Positions 2,796 through 31,418 of a DNA stretch of 32,400 nt are shown here, one piece after another. Each line of letters starts with the position of its first letter. Positions within the stretch are counted from its first letter, which is position 1. A program made the position numbers and the translations under genes. The stretch is from a virus. The notes beneath the pieces are model-generated. The model was not told the DNA's origin and did not search any database. It was given only the letters and a program-made list of their open reading frames with translations. The stretch is taken from the IMG/VR virus record IMGVR_UViG_3300042111_000159, positions 1 to 32,400 of that record. One strand, given 5' to 3'.

Positions 2796-3620
2796 TCACA
2801 TGAGGGCAGGCGTCTTCGGCGTCTTCGTCCTCAACTGTGCCCAATCGCAATACGCCTGCTCGAACAACGCGGGCGAGCGGTGCCCCAGGTGCAGCCGCCC
2901 AGCCCCGGCCCGTTCCATCTCGACGTGTGTCGCGCCGCTGCGGCGGAGAAACTTCGACGTTCCGCCGATGCCGATGCTGTCGATCAGCACCCGCATCCAC
3001 CGCATCGCCATTCGCCGCCGGCAGGCCCAGCCGAGAATCCGCCCGTCAGGTGATTTCGCGAGCATCGCGTCGATCGCCGTAAGACACGCCGGCGTGAGCG
3101 GTCGCGTCAGCGGGTCGCCCGTCTTCGACTGCACCCACGCGAGAGCATCGTCGCGGAGGTTGTCCCGCGTGAACGCCATGCAATCGCCGAAGCGGCTGCC
3201 CGTCTCGTAGCAGATGAGAATCCAGCAGCGGAGGAAGAGCCCGAGATCCGCACCGCTGCGAAGCCGCTTGCCGTCGTGTGCCTTGGTCGCATCGAGCAGC
3301 TTCTTCAGTTCGGGAACCGTCCATGCCTTCGTCGGGCGGCGGCGGATCTTGATCCGCATGATGCCGCGCGGGGCTTCATCGACCACGCGGCTGTCATACG
3401 CCCACCGCCAGAGCGAAAGCAGGATCGTCCGCTCGCTCCTGGCGGTCGTGCTCTCGACGCGCTCGGCCCGAGCTCGGAGGTGGCGGTTGAGATCGTCGCA
3501 CGTGACGAGCCCAGCACGGGCCGCGACGCGGGTCACGTTCGCTTCGTAGGTGCGCGAGACGCGCCGCTGGGCGAGGTAGAGCGGCGCGAGGGCGGCGAAG
3601 GTGGTGGGCTTTTTCTTCAT
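2796..3620 (-). CDS. Tyrosine recombinase with variant box II
   Basis: 274 residues from the ATG at 3620, which is preceded by GGTGA nine bases upstream; an in-frame GTG at 3629 is also possible. Catalytic residues are recognisable: R143 in GSRFGD, K166 in SKTG, R226 in KFLRRSGATH, H247 in HLGH and the nucleophile Y257 in EQAYCD. The usual HxxR of box II is KxxR here (K223). The protein is short, with a compact SAM-like N-terminal domain. It lies inside the recombination and replication operon, not next to the regulatory switch, so it may resolve phage multimers or be a replaced older integrase rather than the primary integrase (the plus-strand gene at 7527-8459). Confidence 0.8.
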   Translation of the reverse strand: MKKKPTTFAALAPLYLAQRRVSRTYEANVTRVAARAGLVTCDDLNRHLRARAERVESTTARSERTILLSLWRWAYDSRVVDEAPRGIMRIKIRRRPTKAWTVPELKKLLDATKAHDGKRLRSGADLGLFLRCWILICYETGSRFGDCMAFTRDNLRDDALAWVQSKTGDPLTRPLTPACLTAIDAMLAKSPDGRILGWACRRRMAMRWMRVLIDSIGIGGTSKFLRRSGATHVEMERAGAGRLHLGHRSPALFEQAYCDWAQLRTKTPKTPALM

Positions 3621-3622
3621 GG

Positions 3623-3982
3623 CTACCACTCACCCCCAAATCTGCTGCGCATCCTGTCGATGTATTCCTCTTCCCGCCCCGCCTTGAACGCCGCCTTCGC
3701 CGCCGCATTCCCGGGCCGCAGAAAGTCGCCGCCCGCCGGCGGAGTCCCGTAGTTCTGCATCGAGGTCGTGATCCGCGTGCCGTTCGCGTAGACGCGGACG
3801 CGGTAGCGGAAGCCGTCGAGATCCTTGATCTCGTCGCTCACGAGGTCGCTGGCGGGCTTCGCCGGTGCGTCGAGCACCTTGCCGATGTCGGGCTCGAACG
3901 TCGACCGGCCCGCAGCATCGCGAGCGAGTCGCTCGCGGAACTCTTCAATCGACTCGAAGTCGCGCCTGAATGTGTCCTTCAT
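3623..3982 (-). CDS. Phage protein of unknown function
   Basis: 119 residues, not recognised. The start is well defined: AAGGAGGTGAG lies just before the ATG. The protein is mixed charged, with a central beta-rich stretch (FRYRVRVYANGTRITT) and a C-terminal helix (AAKAAFKAGREEEYIDRMRSRFGGEW). It ends three bases before the ATG of the downstream recombinase, so the two are very likely co-translated. Confidence 0.6.
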   Translation of the reverse strand: MKDTFRRDFESIEEFRERLARDAAGRSTFEPDIGKVLDAPAKPASDLVSDEIKDLDGFRYRVRVYANGTRITTSMQNYGTPPAGGDFLRPGNAAAKAAFKAGREEEYIDRMRSRFGGEW

Positions 3983-4773: not shown

Positions 4774-5712
4774 CTACTTGTCGGAAACGGTCGCCGGCTC
4801 GATCTCGTCGTGCCGGGCGTTGACTTCGTCGGTGAGCGTTGACCACTCGTTGCCGTCGATCTTGCCTTCACTGACAAGGGCATCGAGGCGGTCGGTGATC
4901 GCGCCGAGTTTCTTCACGGTGGTCGCCGCCGCGATCGTCTCGCGGATCTTCTCGACGAGCGGAGGCGTCCCCTGTGCCACGGGTGTGGCTTTTGCACGTG
5001 CTGCCGGCAGCACGACAGGGGACGCGGTTCCGCCCGACAGCCACTCGGCAAGACGCTTGCCGGTGTCTGCGGTGATCGGCTTGGGATCGCCGGCGAAGAG
5101 CCCGGTGCGATCCTTGCTCACCGTGGCGTAGTGCCCGTCGTGGATGATGTCGAGAACGCAAGTGAACTCAAACTCCAGCCCATCGCGGGCTTCGAGTTTC
5201 ATCCCGAGCTTCGCCACCTTCTTCTTCCCGTGATCGTCCACCTGGGCGGTCTCGGTTTTCGAACGACCGCAGCAGATGACGTGGGCCGGCGAGCGCAGGA
5301 GCTTGTCCACGAACGCCCGCCATCGCGGCGTGATCACGCTGAACGCCGACCACGTGTTGCCGCGGAACTGTGCCTTGGCAACGTCCTCGAGGATTTCCAG
5401 GCAGCCGCCCGGGCCGCTCCAGCAATGCGTCACCGAATCGACGATGATGATCTCGTAGCCCGCCTGCTCGGCTGCGTTGATCGCCTCGATGTACGCTTCA
5501 GGCGAAAACGGCGGGCGGAGGTCGATCACGTCGAACTCGTGGAGGTGATCGTAGAGGTCGGATGATCCTTCCTCGGTGTCGATCACCACACACTTGCCGC
5601 CGATGCCCTTGGCGATCTGCAGGGCACCCCAAGTCTTTCCGCTGCCGCTCGGCCCGGTCAGCAACAGTCGCAGTTTCGTGGCACTGCGGCGGGCCTTTCT
5701 GATCTGAATCAT
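4774..5712 (-). CDS. AAA_24/Sak4-like P-loop ATPase
   Basis: 312 residues from the ATG at 5712, which has AAGGGA seven bases upstream; an in-frame TTG at 5718 is less likely. Walker A GPSGSGKT is at 20-27 and Walker B IIIVD at 88-92, in the RecA-like order of phage AAA_24 proteins. Family members include Sak4 single-strand annealing or recombinase proteins, which work with an SSB. The gene order here (ATPase, then an SSB-like gene) fits that pairing. A C-terminal helical region from about residue 245 follows the ATPase core. Role in homologous recombination or replication is inferred from family and neighbours. Confidence 0.75.
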   Translation of the reverse strand: MIQIRKARRSATKLRLLLTGPSGSGKTWGALQIAKGIGGKCVVIDTEEGSSDLYDHLHEFDVIDLRPPFSPEAYIEAINAAEQAGYEIIIVDSVTHCWSGPGGCLEILEDVAKAQFRGNTWSAFSVITPRWRAFVDKLLRSPAHVICCGRSKTETAQVDDHGKKKVAKLGMKLEARDGLEFEFTCVLDIIHDGHYATVSKDRTGLFAGDPKPITADTGKRLAEWLSGGTASPVVLPAARAKATPVAQGTPPLVEKIRETIAAATTVKKLGAITDRLDALVSEGKIDGNEWSTLTDEVNARHDEIEPATVSDK

Positions 5713-7474: not shown

Positions 7475-7503
7475 TTGACACTCGTACACTGCCTTCGTGT
7501 ACG
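7475..7503 (+). promoter_or_regulatory. Integrase control region: -35-like element and 7-bp inverted repeat
   Basis: TTGACA (7475-7480) is followed by a perfect inverted repeat CGTACAC-N7-GTGTACG (7483-7503). A convincing -10 is not obvious: TGTACG at 17 bp and TACGCT at 19 bp are the candidates. The symmetry differs from the early-operon operator, so a different protein, perhaps the integrase itself or a repressor, would bind here. Confidence 0.45.
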
Positions 7504-7526
7504 CTACAGAAAGGACAGAAAGGGCC

Positions 7527-8459
7527 ATGGAACTACAGAATCTTCTCACAGAACGGTACGCGATCCTGCACAATCTCTGCGGTCGGTCGGTCATCCTCTT
7601 CACTCACTCCATCGACCGTCTCTCGGATTTTCTTGGGCGACCCGCCCAGGTGTCCGATTTGGACGATCTTACCGTCAGCCGCTTCGTCCGGTGGCGGGCC
7701 GTCACGCCGCACAGGGGCAGGATCGCAGCCCCCGCGACCGTCCGAAAGGATCTCGCGCAGTTGGTCTCGCTTTGGAACCACGCCGCCAAGAAACGGATGC
7801 CCGGGGCGAACGGCGAGCCGTTGGAGTTCCCAGATCTGCCCAGGAACCTCATACGCGTGCCCACAAGGCCGCCACGCGGCTACACGGCAGACGAGGTGGC
7901 TGCCATCGTCAGAGAGGCCAGGAAGCGGTGTAGGCCCATCGGGCCGGCCAAGGGGGCGTGGTTCTGGGAAACCCTCGTGCTCGCCGCCTGGTTCACCGGC
8001 GAGCGAATCGGTGGGCTGCTCCGCGTTCGCTGGTCAGAGGTCGATCTGGAGGCGGGGGCGATCACGTTTCTCGGGGAAACCCGGAAGGGCGGCATTGAGA
8101 CGATCAGCAGGGCGATACCGGCAAGCCTCTGCGAGCTCCTCGCCCGCCACCGCCGGGCTCCGAACGATTACGTGTGGCCGTGGCTGTCGCACCGCAAGAA
8201 ACAGGACACGATCTACCAATCGCTTCGCCTGCTCTGCGAAGACGCTCGGGTTCAGCCGCGCGGGTTCCACGCGATCCGCAAGGCATCCGGCTCCTACGTG
8301 GCAAAGGCAGGCGGCGACGCCACCGCTCATCTATCGCACGCCGACAGCAAGACCACGCGGAAGCACTACCTCGACGAGACGATCACGGGCAAGCAGTCGG
8401 CTCTCGACTACCTCCCGCCCTTGAACCTCGACGAACCACCGCCCCGGAAGCCCCGGTGA
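7527..8459 (+). CDS. Phage integrase, tyrosine recombinase family
   Basis: 310 residues from the ATG at 7527; a GTG at 7497 would extend it but lies in the inverted repeat of the control region. All catalytic positions are present: R160 in FTGERIG, K187 in TRKGG, H248 and R251 in HAIRKAS, H271 in LSHAD and Y281 in RKHYLD. An N-terminal SAM-like core-binding domain covers about residues 10-110. It is the only clear plus-strand gene and diverges from the helix-turn-helix gene, the arrangement expected for a lysogeny module. Phage genes lie on both sides, so either attP is nearby and the phage is not integrated here, or the integrase is internal. No att core could be identified. Confidence 0.88.
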   Translation: MELQNLLTERYAILHNLCGRSVILFTHSIDRLSDFLGRPAQVSDLDDLTVSRFVRWRAVTPHRGRIAAPATVRKDLAQLVSLWNHAAKKRMPGANGEPLEFPDLPRNLIRVPTRPPRGYTADEVAAIVREARKRCRPIGPAKGAWFWETLVLAAWFTGERIGGLLRVRWSEVDLEAGAITFLGETRKGGIETISRAIPASLCELLARHRRAPNDYVWPWLSHRKKQDTIYQSLRLLCEDARVQPRGFHAIRKASGSYVAKAGGDATAHLSHADSKTTRKHYLDETITGKQSALDYLPPLNLDEPPPRKPR

Positions 8460-21600: not shown

Positions 21601-21773
21601 GGCTGCTTCCGCTTGGGCTTCGGCGTGTCGAGGAGCGGCTGATCGGCGTCGGCGGCCCGCTTCGCGTACTCCCACGCGATGAGCGATTCCGCCTGGCGTT
21701 CCGGCAACTCGACGATCTCGCCTTTCTTGTAGGCGGCGTAGGGCTTCACCATCCGTATCTTCATCATCCTCAT
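21597..21773 (-). CDS. Small protein, first member of a tandem pair
   Basis: 58 residues from the ATG at 21773, which overlaps the stop of the glycosyltransferase-like gene (ATGA); ATGs at 21767 and 21764 are alternatives. The core is KIRMVKPYAAYKKGEIVELP followed by an ERQAESLIAWEYAKRA helix and a basic Pro/Lys tail. Related to the next gene. Confidence 0.6.
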   Translation of the reverse strand: MRMMKIRMVKPYAAYKKGEIVELPERQAESLIAWEYAKRAADADQPLLDTPKPKRKQP

Positions 21774-22504
21774 TGCGGCACGCTCCATGCAGATCCGGGA
21801 GGCTTGCGGGTGTTCTGCCATTCGGTCGTGTATTGGTAGACCGGGCCGGAAAGGTTCTTCCCGGGCCACGTGATCACGTATTCGCCGTGCCCGATCACCA
21901 CGCGCGGCGTTACGTAGAGGCGGTTGCCGGATGCCTTGAAATTGCTCCAGAAGGCAATGTCGGCGTCGCGGCGACCTTCGCCCCAGCCGCCTGTCGGATC
22001 TGGCGTCTCTTGGAACCACGGCTTTGCCATGCGGCGGAGAGCCCGAGTCGAGATGATCGTGCAGCCGAAATGCGCGGTGTCCACTTGTTGCACCGGAGCA
22101 CCGAACCACCCGACCGGCACTTCTGTGACGCCGCCTTCGGGCGGATTGTCCAGCGTGTCGAGGAGCGTCAGCATCGGGCGGCCGTCCTCTCGCTTCGTCT
22201 GGAGCGGCGCGAGCGCGTCGCACTGGAATGTGAGTGCGAGAGCGAATAGATGTTCGATCGACTCGCGACTCACGAAGGAATCCATGTCGAGCGTAATAAT
22301 GAACTCCGTCGAGGGCTCGAACTGTTCGAGCATTCGCGTGAGCACTTGGCTCCAGTAGGCACCCTGCCCGAGCGTCGGGCGGATGTGCAGCGGCATCATC
22401 GCTTCGATGAAGCCGAAGATGTTGATCAGCGGGCCGAATCGCGGGCCGGATAGAACCGCCTCGCACCGCACCTCGACCTTCGTATCGCCAACTTGAACCA
22501 GCAT
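21770..22504 (-). CDS. Glycosyltransferase-like (GT-A type) protein
   Basis: 244 residues from the ATG at 22504 (GAGGT upstream). The segment EFIITLDMDSFVS contains a DxD motif (D73, D75) after a hydrophobic strand, and GWGEGRRDADIAFW supplies a second acidic site (D180, D182) as in GT-A sugar-nucleotide enzymes; FGCTIISTRALRR in between fits the acceptor region. It stands among head genes, directly after the capsid terminator, which suggests modification of virion or host-surface glycans. No signal peptide or membrane segment is evident. Confidence 0.65.
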   Translation of the reverse strand: MLVQVGDTKVEVRCEAVLSGPRFGPLINIFGFIEAMMPLHIRPTLGQGAYWSQVLTRMLEQFEPSTEFIITLDMDSFVSRESIEHLFALALTFQCDALAPLQTKREDGRPMLTLLDTLDNPPEGGVTEVPVGWFGAPVQQVDTAHFGCTIISTRALRRMAKPWFQETPDPTGGWGEGRRDADIAFWSNFKASGNRLYVTPRVVIGHGEYVITWPGKNLSGPVYQYTTEWQNTRKPPGSAWSVPQ

Positions 22505-22515
22505 GGGCACCTCGC

Positions 22516-22557
22516 AAAAAGAAAGCGGCGGGTGTGACGCGTGCCACACCCGCCGCC
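22516..22557 (-). terminator. Intrinsic terminator after the capsid genes
   Basis: Perfect 12-bp inverted repeat (GCGGCGGGTGTG, 22526-22537; CACACCCGCCGC, 22546-22557) around an 8-nt loop, followed on the minus strand by TTTCTTTTT (22525 to about 22517). This is a textbook Rho-independent terminator. It ends the capsid and decoration transcript immediately before the ribosome site of the glycosyltransferase-like gene. Confidence 0.9.
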
Positions 22558-22582
22558 TAGATTGCACTGCTTGTCAAGCCGA

Positions 22583-24744: not shown

Positions 24745-25750
24745 GCGACCTCAGATACTCGCGGAACTCTGCCGCCTTCGCGGCCGACTGCACACGCTTG
24801 GCGACCACCGCCTCGCGCTGCTGCCGGAACTGTTCGAGCGACCGCTGGGCGACTTCGAGCCCGCCGTCGCCGTAGGCCGGGTAGGTGCAGGGGCCGACAT
24901 CCAGGAGCGAGTCCACCGACCGGATCGTCCTCACGCTCTGCCCGTCCTCGATCGCCCACTCATCGCCACCAGGGGCGACGGTGAACGCGAAGGAACTGCC
25001 GAGCACGATGCCGTCGCGGATGTTGTTCGCCAGATCCCGCCCGTAGGACGAATCTGGCACCGGGAACTCGTACCGCAGCCCGACTTCGTCCACGGTCAGC
25101 GAGAGCGTTCGTGGATACCGGGCGAGCGGGTAGTTCGAGTCGTGATTGAACAGGGCACGCGTTTCGAGCTTTTTCTTGCGGCCGCGCCGCTCCGAGACGA
25201 TCGAGAACGCCGCCGGGTCGATCCGCTCGTAGAAATCGCCGAGCAGGAGCGACCGCACGCCGAAGCGGGCCGCGTAGCCGACGATGTATTCGCGCTCGGC
25301 TTCGCCTTCGACGCTCCGCGTCTCGACCGCGAGCATCGGCACGGCGGTGTCGGTGTTCTCTTCGATCAACAGGCTGCGGCGTTCAACTGCGTTGCTCATC
25401 GTTCTCTCCTCGTCTGCGGCGTCGATCTGACGCGTGAGTTTGCTGGCCCATGCTTGCCCGGGGTCTCCGCCCCACAATGCCCAGGCGATCCGGCCCGCGC
25501 TCGGAAAGCCGTTCTCGCCGGGGCTCCACCCTTCGCCCTGCTTGTCAACCTCGTGGCGGGCGAAGTACGAAGCCATACGCTTCGCAGTGTCGGGGCTGAT
25601 GTTCGTGCCGTTCGACAAGTCGCGTGCCCGGGCGACGCCGACCGCGGTGCCGCCACGGTTGAACTCGTCGCGCCACGCGAGCCCCTTCGCCGCTTCCTTG
25701 CGAACGCCAGCCGGGGGCGTGAAGTCGATGTGGTCGTACTTAGCCGCCAC
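24734..25750 (-). CDS. Prohead protease (HK97 type) with an N-terminal phage module
   Basis: 338 residues from a GTG at 25750 (AAAGGGG upstream, 11-nt overlap with the portal gene). Residues 1-113 form a module with WSPGENGFPSAGRIAWALWG (75-94), known to me from other phage proteases but without known function. The protease proper follows, with YIVGYAARFG (155-164), catalytic His in LFNHD (H203) and Ser in LGSSFAF (S252 or S253). A strong internal site (GAGGAG before ATG 25399, residue 118) could yield a protease-only form of 221 residues. The enzyme should cleave the capsid delta region. Confidence 0.85.
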   Translation of the reverse strand: MAAKYDHIDFTPPAGVRKEAAKGLAWRDEFNRGGTAVGVARARDLSNGTNISPDTAKRMASYFARHEVDKQGEGWSPGENGFPSAGRIAWALWGGDPGQAWASKLTRQIDAADEERTMSNAVERRSLLIEENTDTAVPMLAVETRSVEGEAEREYIVGYAARFGVRSLLLGDFYERIDPAAFSIVSERRGRKKKLETRALFNHDSNYPLARYPRTLSLTVDEVGLRYEFPVPDSSYGRDLANNIRDGIVLGSSFAFTVAPGGDEWAIEDGQSVRTIRSVDSLLDVGPCTYPAYGDGGLEVAQRSLEQFRQQREAVVAKRVQSAAKAAEFREYLRSHGR

Positions 25751-27899
25751 GCTTTCGCCCCTTTCGCTTCGGCTTGCTGTATGCCTTCTCCTCGATCGGC
25801 GGCTCGGGCAGCGGGTCGATCTTCGTGAGCGTCGCGACCTTGTGCCCGACTTGCGTCTCGGTTGCACGCCATCCGCCCGCCACCTCTTCGTACAGCGTGA
25901 TGAGGGCGGCAGGGTCTTCCTCGGTCGCGTCGATCGTGAAGTCGGTGCCCGGCACGTCGAGTGTGCCGTAGTCCATCACGTGATCGACACGCCCGCGGGC
26001 ACGACCGCCGGATGAATCCCACGAGACGAAGTCGCCTTCGGCCACGGTGCCCGGCTCGGCACGCTGCTCTGCGGAGCGAATGAACTGCGGGCTGTCATCC
26101 ACCCACACATCGACCTCGATGCCAGCCGCCTGGGCGGCGTCTGCCTTCATCGTGTCGCCGCCCACGAGCAGCACTTGCGAGAACGCATCGGCGTATTCGC
26201 CAAGCGTCTCAGTGACGGTCTGCCGATCTTCCTCGGGGCGGCGCGAGATCATCACGACCGTGTTTCCTTCGGCCGCCGATTTGCGGGCGAACTCGCCCCA
26301 CAACTGCGGATCGGCGGCGAACGTGCGGTCGAAGTCGATGCTGATCGTGAGGGCACGAGACTCGGGGAGCGAGCGGGCGGCCGGGGGCAGCGGTGCAGGC
26401 GGGGCGGGCGCGGGCTGTGCTGCCGCTTGGTTCTCGGTCACGCCTGCGAGGATCGCTTGTACGGCGGATGCGTTGATGCTTGGGAACGATGCGGCAATCA
26501 AAGCCCCGGCGGCGTCTTTTGAGATCAGCCCGGCGGGAATCTGTTGCAGGATTGCGATCAGTCCCGTGATCTGGGCACCATTGAGACTTACGTCGGCGAC
26601 TTGTGGCGTCGCCTGCTCCACCGGCCCCGCCTCCGCCGCCGCCGCCAGCCCGCCTTCGACCGCCTGCCCGTCGATGCCGCTCCCGGGCTGCTGCTGCGCG
26701 AGCACGTCGGTCGCCGTCGGCTCCTGGCCGAGCGTGCCCATGTTCAGCGGGCGGTAGCGAACGTCGCCGCCGTCCACCGGGTTCATGCCTTCCTCGGTGC
26801 GGATGTCGTTCGTGTTGAACACGCCGAGATCCCACATCTGTCGGTAGTACGTTGACCGGCTCGCGGAGTCGGCCCGTAGCATGAATCGAGTATCGAACGA
26901 CACTTCGTAGCGATCGTCCTCGACGATCAAATCGCGGGTGAACGCCGACTCGAATCGACGCAGCCACGGCATGATCGTGTCGGTGAGGAACTCCTGCGAC
27001 GAGGTCTCCAGCGACCCGGGCGGCATCGCGCCTTGGGCTTGAATCTTCCACGCCGGCACGCGCCAGAGTCGGCAGATTTCCTCGATCTGGAACCGCCGCC
27101 CTTCGAGCCACTGGCTGTCGGTGTTCGTGTTCTGAGGCAAGGCGTGCGGCTTCAGCCCGCCCGTGAGTACGGCGGTCTTGTGGCTGTTGCCGACGCCGGC
27201 GTGCTTCCGGTCCCACTGGTTCGCAAGAGTCTCCCGGGCTTCGGCGTTGAGTTGCCCTTCGGTCGAGAGTACGAAGCCGGGCCGGGCACCGGCGGCGAAG
27301 TACCGAGCACCGTGGAGTTCGTAGGCTCGCGCCAAGGCGATCGCGTCCTTGCACGTCTCCACCGGAGACAGCCCGTTGATGCCGTCTTCGGTGAGCCCGC
27401 GAATGGCGAGAATCTGCTCTTGGTTGTAGACCGTCTCCTGGCCGCGCTCCTCGCGATACTTGTAGCGCAGCTTGCCGTTCTCCAGCCGCTCCACCTTCAT
27501 CCGCGACGGGTGTAGCGGAATGAGTTGATCCACCGCTCCCGACTGCCCGGGCACGATCTCGCAGTAGGCGACGTTGTAGAGACCGGCGTGAAGCATCAAC
27601 TGGCAACGCCACTCGAACGAGGTCTGCCACCCGTTCGGCTGGAGGTTCAGTTTCCGGTACAGCGGGAGCTCTGTCGCGCGACGCTTGCCGCCGTCGCCCA
27701 TCCGCTCGAGCACGTGGAGAGCCGGCGTCGCCACCGCCTCCGCGAGCACGCGGATGCACGCGAACACCGTCGAGACCATGAGCGCGTTGTCGGGGCTGAT
27801 TCGCACGCCGGCAGAGGATCGGGAGCCGGCGTCCTCGTCCCACATGCGTTCCTCGCCGGGAAGCCAGAGGATGCGGTGCTGCTGGTTGGCTGCGATCAT
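25740..27899 (-). CDS. Portal protein fused to HAD-like and Tudor-like domains
   Basis: 719 residues; HK97-type portals are usually around 400-450. Residues 1 to about 400 are a clear HK97-family portal (DNALMVSTVFACIRVLAEAV, then RRFQIEEICRLWRVP). Residues 436-486 hold a helical segment often found at portal C-termini. After an Ala/Pro linker (about 492-510), residues 517-605 look like a HAD hydrolase: IDFDRTF (D522, D524), VVMISRR (S552), a candidate motif III lysine (K585) and DVWVDDSP (D601, D602). Residues 620-690 resemble small Tudor/DUF2945-like phage modules (GDFVSWDSSGGRARGRV, then VGHKVATLTKI). The terminase stop overlaps its ATG (ATGA). No frameshift or internal start separates the domains. 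Confidence 0.85.
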   Translation of the reverse strand: MIAANQQHRILWLPGEERMWDEDAGSRSSAGVRISPDNALMVSTVFACIRVLAEAVATPALHVLERMGDGGKRRATELPLYRKLNLQPNGWQTSFEWRCQLMLHAGLYNVAYCEIVPGQSGAVDQLIPLHPSRMKVERLENGKLRYKYREERGQETVYNQEQILAIRGLTEDGINGLSPVETCKDAIALARAYELHGARYFAAGARPGFVLSTEGQLNAEARETLANQWDRKHAGVGNSHKTAVLTGGLKPHALPQNTNTDSQWLEGRRFQIEEICRLWRVPAWKIQAQGAMPPGSLETSSQEFLTDTIMPWLRRFESAFTRDLIVEDDRYEVSFDTRFMLRADSASRSTYYRQMWDLGVFNTNDIRTEEGMNPVDGGDVRYRPLNMGTLGQEPTATDVLAQQQPGSGIDGQAVEGGLAAAAEAGPVEQATPQVADVSLNGAQITGLIAILQQIPAGLISKDAAGALIAASFPSINASAVQAILAGVTENQAAAQPAPAPPAPLPPAARSLPESRALTISIDFDRTFAADPQLWGEFARKSAAEGNTVVMISRRPEEDRQTVTETLGEYADAFSQVLLVGGDTMKADAAQAAGIEVDVWVDDSPQFIRSAEQRAEPGTVAEGDFVSWDSSGGRARGRVDHVMDYGTLDVPGTDFTIDATEEDPAALITLYEEVAGGWRATETQVGHKVATLTKIDPLPEPPIEEKAYSKPKRKGRKRGG

Positions 27900-29302
27900 A
27901 GGAAGAAGATTTCAGGGGTGCCGCTCGGCTGTTGTTCGGCACCCATCCAGCAGGCGATGCCTTCACACAACGCCACGATGCCGTCGATCCGCTCGGTGCT
28001 GTTCGCCTTGCTCGGGTACACGTTGCCGTGCCGGTCTTCGGCCACGGCACAGTTCGATGCGTTCCACGAGAGCACCGGATGCCCGGCGTGCCGGGCTTTG
28101 CCGGCGAGCACGAGGGCATCCAGTGATCGCAGGGGGGCCGACATCGCGCGGCCTCCCTGTGGGTATCCAACCACTTCCACCCCATCCCCTTGCAGCATGT
28201 TCGCCAGCATCTGCCCGTTGAACTTCAAATCCACGGCCAGTTTCCGCACGCGGTACTGATCGCAGATCTGCACGATGTCGCGGTGCAAAACCGTGTAGTC
28301 GGTCACGTTTCCATCGGTCACGCGGATGTGCCCGTCTCGAATCCACCCGAGATAGTCCACCTTGTCACGCTGGGCACGCTCGGCTGCGTTCGACTCGGGA
28401 ATCCAGAAGAACGGCAGGATGTCGAGGGAGTTGTCGGACGGGTCGGGGCAGACGAGCACCAGGGCGGTGAGGTCATACGTGCTCGCAAGATCGAGCCCGG
28501 CGTACACCGGGCGATCGCCGAACTCACGCAGTGGCCCGCAGCACGCAGCCCACGCATCCGGCTTGAAGAATCGTGTGTCTTGGGTTGTCCAGACATTGAG
28601 CCGGTATCGCAAGAAAGAGTTCAGCTTCGTCGGCGACTGCTCCGCTTCGCGGGCATCGGCGGCAAACGAATCTTCGGTGATCGTCTGCCCCAGCGACGGG
28701 TTCGCAATCTTCCACACCTTCGGCGTCTTCCACGTGCCGTCGGTCGCACAGTCCGGCGGGGCGGCGTAGATGCAACCAAAGAACGTCGGGTCGAACGCAG
28801 GGTCGGCGATGCACTTCTCCGCGTAGGCGTGCTGCTCCCAGCAGATGCTCTTGCGGTCGAAGCCCGCCGTCGTGATCGACAGGATGAGCGGCTGCCGCCG
28901 GGCCGCGCCGCCGTACCGGAGAGCATCCCAGAGCCGCCGATCCCGCTGGGCATGGAGCTCGTCGAAGAGGAGCATGTGAATGTTCAAGCCTTCCGCCCGG
29001 AAGGCGTCGGCGGAGAGCACCCGATAGAAGGAGTTCGTGGTGCGGTCGATGATCGTCTTCCGAGAGTCGATCACCTCGAGACGCTTCGACAGGGCAGGAG
29101 ACGAGCGAACCATCGACGCCGCCTCGCGGTAGATGATCCCGGCTTGTTCGCGATCACTAGCAGCGCCGTAGATTTCGGCACCAGGCTCGTTATCACAGAC
29201 GAGACCGTAGAGGGCCACGCCGGCGAGCGTAGTGCTCTTTCCTTGTTTCTTTGGCGGATACTTGCTGGAGAGTGCCCCCGCTCTATTACGAAACGAGGGC
29301 AC
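27896..29302 (-). CDS. terL: Terminase large subunit, 3' (main) part, out of frame with its 5' part
   Basis: About 468 codons open from 29302, but the natural start lies upstream in another frame. It holds the P-loop KKQGKST, Walker B LLFDELHA, the coupling motif SITTAG, and nuclease acidic residues in YAGLDLAST, LAVDLKFN and TERIDGIVAL. This is the Terminase_1 order of ATPase then nuclease. No ribosome site precedes the GTG at 29302, so independent translation is unlikely. Making a working TerL requires a +1 shift or a hop across the 29265-29309 hairpin; otherwise the gene is broken. Confidence 0.8.
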   Translation of the reverse strand: MPSFRNRAGALSSKYPPKKQGKSTTLAGVALYGLVCDNEPGAEIYGAASDREQAGIIYREAASMVRSSPALSKRLEVIDSRKTIIDRTTNSFYRVLSADAFRAEGLNIHMLLFDELHAQRDRRLWDALRYGGAARRQPLILSITTAGFDRKSICWEQHAYAEKCIADPAFDPTFFGCIYAAPPDCATDGTWKTPKVWKIANPSLGQTITEDSFAADAREAEQSPTKLNSFLRYRLNVWTTQDTRFFKPDAWAACCGPLREFGDRPVYAGLDLASTYDLTALVLVCPDPSDNSLDILPFFWIPESNAAERAQRDKVDYLGWIRDGHIRVTDGNVTDYTVLHRDIVQICDQYRVRKLAVDLKFNGQMLANMLQGDGVEVVGYPQGGRAMSAPLRSLDALVLAGKARHAGHPVLSWNASNCAVAEDRHGNVYPSKANSTERIDGIVALCEGIACWMGAEQQPSGTPEIFFL

Positions 29303-29309
29303 GCCCCAG
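29265..29309. repeat. 45-nt imperfect palindrome inside the terminase gene
   Basis: Its ends are CTGG and CCAG. On the coding (minus) strand CTGGGG pairs with CTCCAG, GTGCCC with GGGCAC, and TCGTTT with GAGCGG around the loop CGTAATA: about 18 pairs including G-U, with one internal mismatch. Two zero-frame stops (TAA TAG) lie within the loop and inner stem. It lies exactly where the strand before the P-loop should run into the P-loop. Confidence 0.8.
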
Positions 29310-29525
29310 TTCGATGTATGCGGTGCGGTATTGCCGCGTTCCGTCCTGCTTGACTGTTGCGAAGATTTCGCCCAGCACCTTCTTCTGCCAATCCATCAGC
29401 AAGAACTGCTGGCCGGCCTTTTGCCCCTTGCTGTGCCGAAGAACTCTCTCAAAAAAACGATAAACCCTACCGGCTAATGCGTCGTCATAATGCGACAGTT
29501 TGTGGCTTTTCTTTTGAGTTTTCAC
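29286..29525 (-). CDS. terL: Terminase large subunit, 5' part
   Basis: 79 codons from a GTG at 29525 with AGGAGG seven bases upstream. It encodes the N-terminal region of Terminase_1-type TerL: a helix YRFFERVLRHSKGQKAGQQF, the MDWQKKVLGEIF segment and the strand RTAYIELGR that should lead straight into the P-loop. Instead it reads ALVS and stops at 29286. The rest of TerL continues in the +1 frame. The start overlaps the end of the HNH gene by 41 nt. Confidence 0.75.
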   Translation of the reverse strand: MKTQKKSHKLSHYDDALAGRVYRFFERVLRHSKGQKAGQQFLLMDWQKKVLGEIFATVKQDGTRQYRTAYIELGRALVS

Positions 29526-30408
29526 GCAGCGCCCTCCTTGCACTTGAAACAAGACGACTGAAAAGTTCTAACGCTCGCTGCGTCACAGCGTCCTTTTTTG
29601 CCATATTTTCTTCTGGCGTAAGTGGCTGATAGTTGCGATAGTTTGCCACGGCCAAGAACTGAGCGCGGTCGCTCAAATCTGCCTTGCTCAGTGGATAGAT
29701 GTGATCAAGCTCCCACGCCTCTCCGTAGTTGCTCCAATTCATTTCGCAAGAGAACTGTTTTTCGATGTAGTCCATGAAAGCGCTTATTGAAATTCCAAGA
29801 TCTCTAACCAACGATCCGCCAGCAGATCTTGACTTGATGGCAGATGTCATCCTTGCCCTCAAAACTGTTGCGATCCTGTGGTTCATGTTTGTGCTGTATC
29901 TCTTGCGCTCTCTTTCTCGAACTCCATCTGGGTCGAGTTGCCGCTGAAGCCTTATCTTTCTGGCTTTCTCGTCCTTGAGCGATTGCGGCAACTCTCGCGA
30001 TTTCTTTAAGACAGAATCGCGATTATCTCGATAGTATTTCAATGCTTGCTGCCGGCCGTATGCACGATATGAATCCGCATGTTTTTCATAGCAGCGCCTT
30101 TTGTAGATTTTTACTTTTTCGGGGTTTGCCTTTGCCCTCTCGTTGCATTGCTTTGCGTGATTAGCTTTTGCGCAAGGCGCACATCGCGTTGGAACTGGCC
30201 CCTTTTTCTTTACGGCGATTTTGCTTCCGCAATCAACGCAATCAACATGAGAGGGCCTCGGATCTCGCCCAGCCTTCATTCTGCTTGCATCGCTGGCGGC
30301 CTTTAGGCTCCTTGCTTTCGCGCAGTCTTTGCATCGCTTTCGCGCCGGCCCCTTCTTGGCACACATTCCGATTGTTGAACAATCGGCGCACACGTACTGC
30401 CTGCACAT
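29485..30408 (-). CDS. HNH homing-type endonuclease with two zinc ribbons
   Basis: 307 residues from the ATG at 30408 (GAGG seven bases upstream); a GTG at 30426 has no ribosome site. Two tandem zinc-ribbon repeats occur near the start: cysteines 7/10 with 26/29, and 57/60 with 76/79, with identical spacing. A long basic helical linker follows. The C-terminal HNH domain has ELDHIYPLS (D235, H236), ANYRNYQPL and EENMAKKD. The DNA is visibly poorer in G+C than both terminase genes, which it separates. Free-standing homing endonucleases commonly invade this interval. Confidence 0.8.
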   Translation of the reverse strand: MCRQYVCADCSTIGMCAKKGPARKRCKDCAKARSLKAASDASRMKAGRDPRPSHVDCVDCGSKIAVKKKGPVPTRCAPCAKANHAKQCNERAKANPEKVKIYKRRCYEKHADSYRAYGRQQALKYYRDNRDSVLKKSRELPQSLKDEKARKIRLQRQLDPDGVRERERKRYSTNMNHRIATVLRARMTSAIKSRSAGGSLVRDLGISISAFMDYIEKQFSCEMNWSNYGEAWELDHIYPLSKADLSDRAQFLAVANYRNYQPLTPEENMAKKDAVTQRALELFSRLVSSARRALRENSKEKPQTVAL

Positions 30409-30467
30409 TGATTTGCCTCGTGACACAGGGTCTGCATTGTCACAGCAAAACTTGAACTAGGCAACAA

Positions 30468-30935
30468 CTACCCGTGAGCTTTCAGCAAGTCTTCTAGTTC
30501 GTCGGTCGGCTGTTCTTGCTTCGTGCCAAGTCGCACTCTCGATGACGGTGTGAGCCCGAACTCGGTCATGAGCGAGGCTTGCAGGCTCACGAGCCCCTTG
30601 TAGAGCGGGCCGGCCGGGTTCGGTTTTATGCCGCCCAAATCTGTCTTCATCACCGGGCCGGTCGCGCGGAGCTCGAGCAGGCACGCTTGGGCCGCAGCAT
30701 AGACCTCGCATAAAGTCGCGAGGGCTTCACCGTCCCCGGTCGTGAGCACATTCATGCCGAGCAAAATCGGAACCAGTTCCTGCCACTTCTCGACGGCGAG
30801 CGGTTCGACGTTCAGCCGCTTCGGCATGGGCGGAGCACCAGGCGGAGCGCTCGGCTCGCGTTTCGGCGCGCCGCGTTGCGTGCCTTCGAGGATCTTTAGC
30901 GGCGTTGGTTTCGGTTTTCGCCCGCGGGTTGCCAT
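30468..30935 (-). CDS. terS: Terminase small subunit, P27 family
   Basis: 155 residues from the ATG at 30935. The basic N-terminus MATRGRKPKPTPLKILEGTQ with following Pro-rich linker and the helical part (WQELVPILLGMNVLTTGDGE) are characteristic of P27-type small terminases. No Shine-Dalgarno sequence is visible before this ATG. It recognises packaging-initiation DNA and delivers it to TerL. Confidence 0.85.
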   Translation of the reverse strand: MATRGRKPKPTPLKILEGTQRGAPKREPSAPPGAPPMPKRLNVEPLAVEKWQELVPILLGMNVLTTGDGEALATLCEVYAAAQACLLELRATGPVMKTDLGGIKPNPAGPLYKGLVSLQASLMTEFGLTPSSRVRLGTKQEQPTDELEDLLKAHG

Positions 30936-31042
30936 GTGATTATTTCGTAGGCACAGACCGGAAAAACGAACGGCTATTCCGCCGCACACGCGAGCGGCAG
31001 CACTGTTGGTTTTCCTCAGACGGTCGTTTTCGTGCGCGCCCC

Positions 31043-31072
31043 CTAGGCGGTGGGTGCCCACAATCTAGGCGG
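31043..31072. repeat. Paired CTAGGCGG repeats around a palindrome, upstream of terS
   Basis: CTAGGCGG occurs at 31043-31050 and 31065-31072, 22 bp apart, and between them is the inverted repeat GTGGG-TG-CCCAC. This lies in the 141-bp gap between the HNH gene and terS, otherwise without a credible gene. Packaging sites are often next to terS, so a TerS-binding or cos-type site is possible. Confidence 0.35.
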
Positions 31073-31076
31073 CGTG

Positions 31077-31418
31077 TCAACCGGCTCGCACTCCGCGTGC
31101 CTCCGCGTTGGTCTTCCGCTGGTGGCAGGCAGAGCACAGGCATTGACCAGCGTCAACGTCATACCTCGATCGCCCATCAGCACACACATCAGTGCCGGCG
31201 ACAACAGGGCTCACGTGGTCAGCATGCGCCTCGCCCTTGCGACCGCAGACCCGAGAGCAGTGCCGGCACGTCCAGGCGTCACGCTCCAGCACAGCACGCC
31301 GCCACGCTCGGTGGCGGCCATCTGTATACCCTCGCCGGTATGCGTTGGGTCGCGACTCCGCAATGCGGATCTGATGCTTGGCCCGAGGTGGCCGCCACAT
31401 CTCGATACGCTGCGGCAT
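31077..31418 (-). CDS. HNH endonuclease of the phage packaging type (HK97 gp74-like)
   Basis: 113 residues. A compact HNH domain: RRAVLERDAWTCRHC (C51, C54), HADHVSP (65-71) and CSACHQRKT with C95, C98, H99 and K102. Proteins like this lie next to terS in many phages and assist terminase cleavage. G+C matches the surrounding phage, unlike the longer HNH gene, so this one looks like a resident gene. Confidence 0.8.
   Translation of the reverse strand: MPQRIEMWRPPRAKHQIRIAESRPNAYRRGYTDGRHRAWRRAVLERDAWTCRHCSRVCGRKGEAHADHVSPVVAGTDVCADGRSRYDVDAGQCLCSACHQRKTNAEARGVRAG

Follow-up and report, generated by a model that had tools for sequence, protein, structure and literature searches.

Short hairpin inserts in phage terminase genes: a probable family of mobile translational-bypass elements

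To our knowledge, efficient bypassing of a long gap in a coding sequence has been established for one gene of a bacterial virus, gene 60 of phage T4, and for the mitochondria of one yeast group. The gene 60 gap is 50 nt long, the take-off codon is contained in a take-off stem-loop and is matched by the landing codon, and the processivity of bypass is high for gaps of up to 56 nt (PMC5009743, PMC11194080). In the mitochondria of Magnusiomyces capitatus, 81 cases of byp elements have been described, and imperfect matches between take-off and landing codons are known among them (PMC5009743). The only terminase case mentioned in a 2016 review is a putative bypass in the Streptomyces phage Hau3, which involves a much shorter gap and a UUA codon and has been proposed to serve regulation (PMC5009743).

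The DNA analysed here is the 32.4-kb virus record IMGVR_UViG_3300042111_000159 of IMG/VR (positions 1 to 32,400; hereafter the window), in which the terminase gene terL lies on the minus strand in two parts. The 5′ part (29307-29525) runs from a GTG at 29525-29523 through the putative take-off codon, aligns with residues 27-90 of uninterrupted relatives and ends in TAYIEL; its translation is ...RTAYIELGRALVS (in a fuller reading, TAYIELGRALVS), after which the frame meets TAA TAG. The 3′ part (27896-29254) extends from the P-loop sequence PKKQGKST to the end of the gene and encodes the remainder of the ATPase and the nuclease domain (PF03354, PF20441), with reading restarting in the +1 frame as PPKKQGKST. 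A sequence-only reading of this DNA had reported that the TerL frame is broken by a palindrome just before the P-loop, with the TAA TAG and the +1 restart, and that about 52 nt look inserted there; all of these points were confirmed. In uninterrupted relatives, some of them as much as 98% identical at the protein level over the 3′ part, YIEL runs straight into PKKQGKST or PKKMGKST, and the extra DNA in the window is therefore exactly 52 nt, from 29306 down to 29255 on the minus strand, which puts the 3′ part in the +1 frame. The alignment with uninterrupted TerL homologues, which had been proposed as a check, thus places the insertion exactly at one junction. The window element is missing at 146 loci that cover this site, and an identical insert occurs in a second IMG/VR contig, the twin of the window (L003).

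The long hairpin described in the sequence-only reading is real, but its 45 nt (29265-29309, minus strand) are not all inserted DNA, as the span includes the CTG codon before the insert. The helix has 18 bp and is closed by the loop CGTAATA, and the putative take-off codon, CTG at 29307-29309 (the Leu of YIEL), is base-paired in the 5′ foot with CAG at 29265-29267. A linker of 7 nt, CAAGTAT (29258-29264), leads from the hairpin to the putative landing triplet, CCG at 29255-29257; at the same site this triplet is CTG in L019 and CTT in L084. The coding-strand fold of the segment together with the upstream CTG has a calculated energy of −31.1 kcal/mol (z = −4.3), and none of 200 shuffles was as stable. 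The element matched the covariance model R1 with 45.8 bits (E = 2.8e-10), and a search of the whole window with this model found no second copy in it. Elsewhere in the window we noted a portal protein of 719 aa (25743-27899) with a long C-terminal extension that contains a Hva1_TUDOR match and a stretch, DFDRTF...DDSP, judged HAD-like by eye, as well as two genes of the tyrosine-recombinase (integrase) family, at 2799-3629 on the minus strand and 7497-8456 on the plus strand.

The window element is a member of a family. Hairpin inserts of 46-52 nt were found in phages with related TerLs at five positions in TerL and once in another gene. Together these six sites yield 32 distinct inserts, distributed over more than 60 contigs. 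Site A is the YIEL/PKKQ junction, where three different alleles occupy the same position: the 52-nt insert of the window and L003, a 49-nt insert in L019 and L086, and another 52-nt insert in L084 and L085. Site B, the RRLW/DALRY junction, is represented by 66 loci with 23 distinct sequences of 50, 51 or 52 nt, a locus number that is not a frequency because some of the loci were chosen by pattern and some derive from the cutting of a single contig. Site C is the FDEL/HAQR junction (L261 and L300), site D the AADR/EQAS junction (eight loci) and site E the AEGL/NIH junction, found in L095, which carries site B as well. On the reverse strand of L095, at about 5380-5560, a single terL thus holds two hairpin elements (E and B) some 60 coding nucleotides apart. 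Sites B to E were shown by gapped-pattern and homology scans. Site F came from a search with a covariance model built from the TerL elements and lies at the GAFW/DQCMERV junction of a non-terminase gene in the phage of L120, as a 51-nt hairpin at about 1846-1896 on the minus strand of L354 (G007:C1). This gene is conserved, lies downstream of the capsid gene and has no Pfam match; homologues that align across the point in other phages are continuous, among them the one in the window (21770-22567, minus strand).

In a TerL set that had not been selected for inserts, 7 of 80 loci carried one. A pattern for the TGAG core, run over 2.9 million contigs, located the core at terL sites B and D only, and GTDB genomes contained no exact match to site B. 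A loose core pattern gave a flood of matches, none of which was a family member by a scan for long hairpins, and a pattern for the UUCG loop with one base off gave only unrelated hairpins, seemingly intergenic. Covariance-model matches in three Planctomycetota genomes were symmetric hairpins with a poorly paired foot and were not counted as elements; the agreement of L083, L087 and L088 with the site A pattern was fortuitous. We found no earlier report of this hairpin family in the open-access literature. The closest genome-borne TerLs are in Planctomycetota MAGs, and the TerLs of the isolate phages searched have less than 60% identity; the host of these phages is probably a member of the Planctomycetota. 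A side observation concerns L314 and L321, in which an in-frame insert of 1077 nt beginning ALAVDTPIPTPAGW lies at about TerL residue 96 (PKKQGK/S); it resembles an intein placed in the P-loop of this TerL family.

All elements share one architecture. Each forms a helix of 18-22 bp with a loop of 4-7 nt, and the 5′ foot of the helix is the codon that precedes the insert. In each of the 31 terL elements that were folded, the start of the helix coincides with the take-off triplet or precedes it by at most three bases, and the take-off codon lies inside the stem-loop, as in a bypass element of the T4 gene 60 type. The distance from the end of the helix to the junction, where the homologous protein resumes, is 7-11 nt in all elements. 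In an alignment of 22 elements, 98.9% of the cells are standard pairs and 13 of the 20 pairs show double changes, covariation values that were reached by none of 500 shuffles; sliding the helix by one column lowers the pairing to about 60-63%. The helix is confirmed by covariation.

The reading frame of the inserts is irrelevant to the gene around them. Insert lengths of 46, 49, 50, 51 and 52 nt were seen, and site B alone covers all three frames. When the flanks were joined, no stop codon occurred in 205 TerLs, 79 of which carry an insert, and the median dN/dS among the site-B TerLs was 0.130 upstream and 0.137 downstream of the insert. The insert is thus a non-coding gap within an intact, selected coding sequence, and the stop-free joins together with purifying selection on both sides imply a product with both halves under selection, whatever the length of the insert. 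In several alleles the linker cannot be decoded, because a stop lies close to the point of resumption. L084 has a TAG two triplets ahead of the junction, the final triplet in L108 and L333 is TGA, and site D has a TGA three triplets ahead of the junction. Frameshifting or readthrough was rejected, since a different event would be needed for each length and the linker stops near the resume point would be left unexplained. No stop follows directly after the take-off codon, as it does in gene 60; the first stop in the 5′ frame is the second codon after take-off at sites C and F and the fifth to eighth codon at site D, in the window, in L084 and in several B alleles, and the inserts of L019, L095 and L092 contain no 5′-frame stop. 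The sequences themselves show exact insertion, a conserved helix, independence of frame and selection on both halves.

We compared the triplet at the junction with the take-off codon. The two are identical (CTG/CTG) at site A in L019 and at sites C and E, and at each of the six sites at least one allele shares the first two bases with the take-off codon; the two-base matches are CGG/CGA, CTG/CTT, TGG/TGA and TGG/TGC. At ten other linker offsets (1-10), no element showed even a two-base match. Matching is not compulsory, because the window pair is only partly matched (CTG/CCG) and most site-B alleles are mismatched, with TGG at take-off and AGA, CGC or CGA at landing. The triplet matches fit re-pairing of a peptidyl-tRNA, as judged from the sequences; an alternative source would be a codon-aligned duplication of 3 nt made at insertion. 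The sequence-only reading had offered CTC/CTC and GGG/GGG as take-off and landing pairs. We set these aside, since either pair would lengthen the protein between YIEL and the P-loop; the relatives, and the linker stops of other alleles, oppose this, and the relatives imply a passage from CTG at 29307-29309 to 29255-29257. At site B, Shine-Dalgarno-like AAAGGG and AGG flanks looked conserved, but L333 lacks them and L339 lacks the downstream AGG; they are therefore more likely relics of conversion tracts. Given the differing distances from the start codon, a nascent peptide (of the KKYK type) common to all sites is unlikely.

We think it probable, from sequence and by analogy, that these elements constitute a mobile family of programmed translational-bypass elements like that of T4 gene 60. 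The element sits exactly between two codons of an essential phage gene and would be skipped when the gene is expressed. The ribosome would decode the take-off codon (CTG, TGG or CGG) in the 5′ foot of the 18-22-bp hairpin, the peptidyl-tRNA would then detach from this codon, and the hairpin would be passed over; the tRNA would re-pair 4-8 nt past the hairpin on a matching or partly matching landing triplet, and decoding would resume at the next codon to give an uninterrupted TerL. The idea of a gene-60-like bypass element in a terminase, already put forward for the window, is strongly strengthened by homologous, covarying and frame-independent elements at six sites, and is carried further by the exact junctions, the matched take-off and landing triplets and the gene-conversion-like spread. 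Some points count against bypassing: a G+C-rich helix of 20 bp probably far exceeds the T4 take-off stem-loop in stability, and the landing triplet is mismatched in most site-B alleles and only partly matched in the window.

That it is the ribosome, rather than an event at the RNA level, that makes the skip is something we infer, and the main rival is an RNA-level mini-intron, in which the hairpin would be excised from the transcript and the exons ligated by enzymes of the host or the phage. Such excision would fit the exact junctions, the frame independence, the conserved hairpin and the selection on both halves equally well, and it would not call for landing triplets that always match. We nevertheless regard it as unlikely. 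An element of 46-52 nt is far below the size of self-splicing introns, and no catalytic RNA core was recognised, as Rfam gave no match to the elements at E values up to 1. A bulge-helix-bulge needs pairing with the downstream exon, whereas the 5′ end of the element pairs with its own 3′ arm. In addition, the 3′ junction has no nucleotides in common among the elements, a Pfam scan of ten window proteins revealed no RNA ligase, and the matched triplet at the junction is in every case aligned with the codons, which splicing would not require.

One could also envision removal at the DNA level, or a phage population with mixed inserted and empty copies, in which the empty gene is the functional one. 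Closely related empty alleles do exist, but the inserted alleles are diverse and old, both their flanks are under purifying selection, and the helix shows compensatory changes. We saw no direct repeats long enough for excision, and mixed copies would leave the conserved hairpins unexplained, so that this explanation appears very improbable. We give slightly less credence still to a split gene with two polypeptides, the second made by re-initiation past the hairpin. A GTG in the 3′ frame does lie inside the site A insert of the window and of L019, but the inserts of site B, site D and L084 contain no 3′-frame start codon at all. In those alleles a start first becomes possible 12-158 codons downstream, at a position that is not conserved, and re-initiation is unlikely because no conserved 3′-frame start codon is near the junction; moreover, such a split would fall within the P-loop strand or the Walker B region. 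Finally, a dead or mis-sequenced terminase, whether by an inactivating insertion, a one-base error in the GGGG run or a simple +1 frameshift, possibilities that the sequence-only reading had raised and that the TAA TAG in the reading frame favours, is contradicted by the comparative data and scarcely credible, as the inserts occur in more than 60 contigs at six sites in genes with no other disruptions and a dN/dS of about 0.13, a one-base change cannot account for 52 extra nucleotides, and the site-B inserts occur in all three frames.

The distribution of the elements points to mobility. Inserted and empty alleles are interleaved in the TerL tree, which requires the site-B insert to have been gained or lost at least 22 times. 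Where inserted and empty alleles are nearly identical, their differences lie mainly at the insert and in about 45 nt on each side of it. In the pairs L134/L297, L104/L289 and L089/L284, the bins that flank the insert (15 codons on each side) are 24-27% divergent, whereas most other 15-codon bins near the site are 0-7% divergent. Differences between pair members are mostly synonymous (dN 0.002-0.009 over the regions compared), and the contigs of L104/L303 and L124/L304 are collinear over kilobases apart from the insert. The flank divergence is the trace left by a short conversion tract of the kind seen in homing, and the two marks of homing-type movement, transfer into empty alleles and short co-conversion of the flanks, were both found. 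Like the matched triplets, the presence/absence alleles with short conversion tracts are shown by the sequences themselves. Spread between phage genomes would be by gene conversion with short flanks, as after homing-type cleavage, and we infer that a nuclease drives it; from these data, homing by a free-standing enzyme is plausible.

An HNH/endonuclease VII-like gene (29485-30426, minus strand), whose weak matches are annotated as endonuclease VII, lies between terL and the terminase small subunit gene terS (30468-31061, minus strand; PF05119, phrog_83). As the sequence-only reading had noted, it is richer in A+T, with a GC content of 0.494 against 0.628 for the window. The proposal that such a gene forms a cassette with the element did not generalise: the gene is confined to the window and its twin L003, no other element was seen to have it as a neighbour, and a fixed element-plus-HNH cassette is therefore not the general rule. 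No nuclease gene adjoins or travels with the site-B elements compared, and a cognate nuclease was not found for most of the elements. For the window itself, the HNH-type gene is a possible partner of the element. A second HNH gene (31077-31418, minus strand), upstream of terS, is present in relatives with and without inserts. As a separate observation, the 5′ part of the window terL (29307-29525) has a GC content of 0.507, near that of the HNH-type gene and unlike the remainder of terL (0.631), and it is far more divergent from the nearest empty relative than is the 3′ part; these sequence features suggest recombination near the insert.

With a little less assurance than for bypassing as such, we consider it likely that phages harbour a hitherto unknown family of ribosome-bypass elements that moves horizontally. 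Such elements would be minimal parasites of some 50 nt in need of neither a protein nor a ribozyme, as any ribosome reading the host gene would hop across the hairpin, and they would invade by conversion the catalytic motifs of terminases and sometimes other genes. If this is true, the 32 distinct elements, spread over six sites and offering three gap lengths at one of them, would make the requirements for hopping comparative and testable, and the range of matched and mismatched landing triplets would be a natural series for the study of ribosome hopping. Bypass elements would then be mobile in phages, which would explain how gene 60 could have arisen, and phage genes annotated as broken may in part be intact.

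Compared with T4 gene 60, the elements share a gap of about 50 nt in a phage gene, a hairpin with the take-off codon, triplets that are matched at least in part, and a likely link to a homing endonuclease, and their lengths of 46-52 nt fall within the processive range of gene 60. Unlike gene 60, they make up a family with alleles at six sites, which lie in two genes; their helix is longer (18-22 bp) and ends 7-11 nt before resumption, the landing triplet often agrees in two of three bases or fewer, and a stop directly after take-off is lacking. With the mitochondrial byps they have in common that many short inserts are skipped in translation (putatively so here) and that matching is not always perfect; they differ in residing in phage genomes, in being read by a bacterial, probably Planctomycetota, ribosome, and in having one hairpin architecture conserved by covariation. 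The Hau3 case likewise concerns a terminase gene, although no long hairpin family is described for Hau3. Finally, like group I introns and inteins, the elements are inserted at the most conserved motifs of essential genes and have presence/absence alleles and short conversion tracts, but unlike them they measure only 46-52 nt and carry neither a ribozyme nor a protein.
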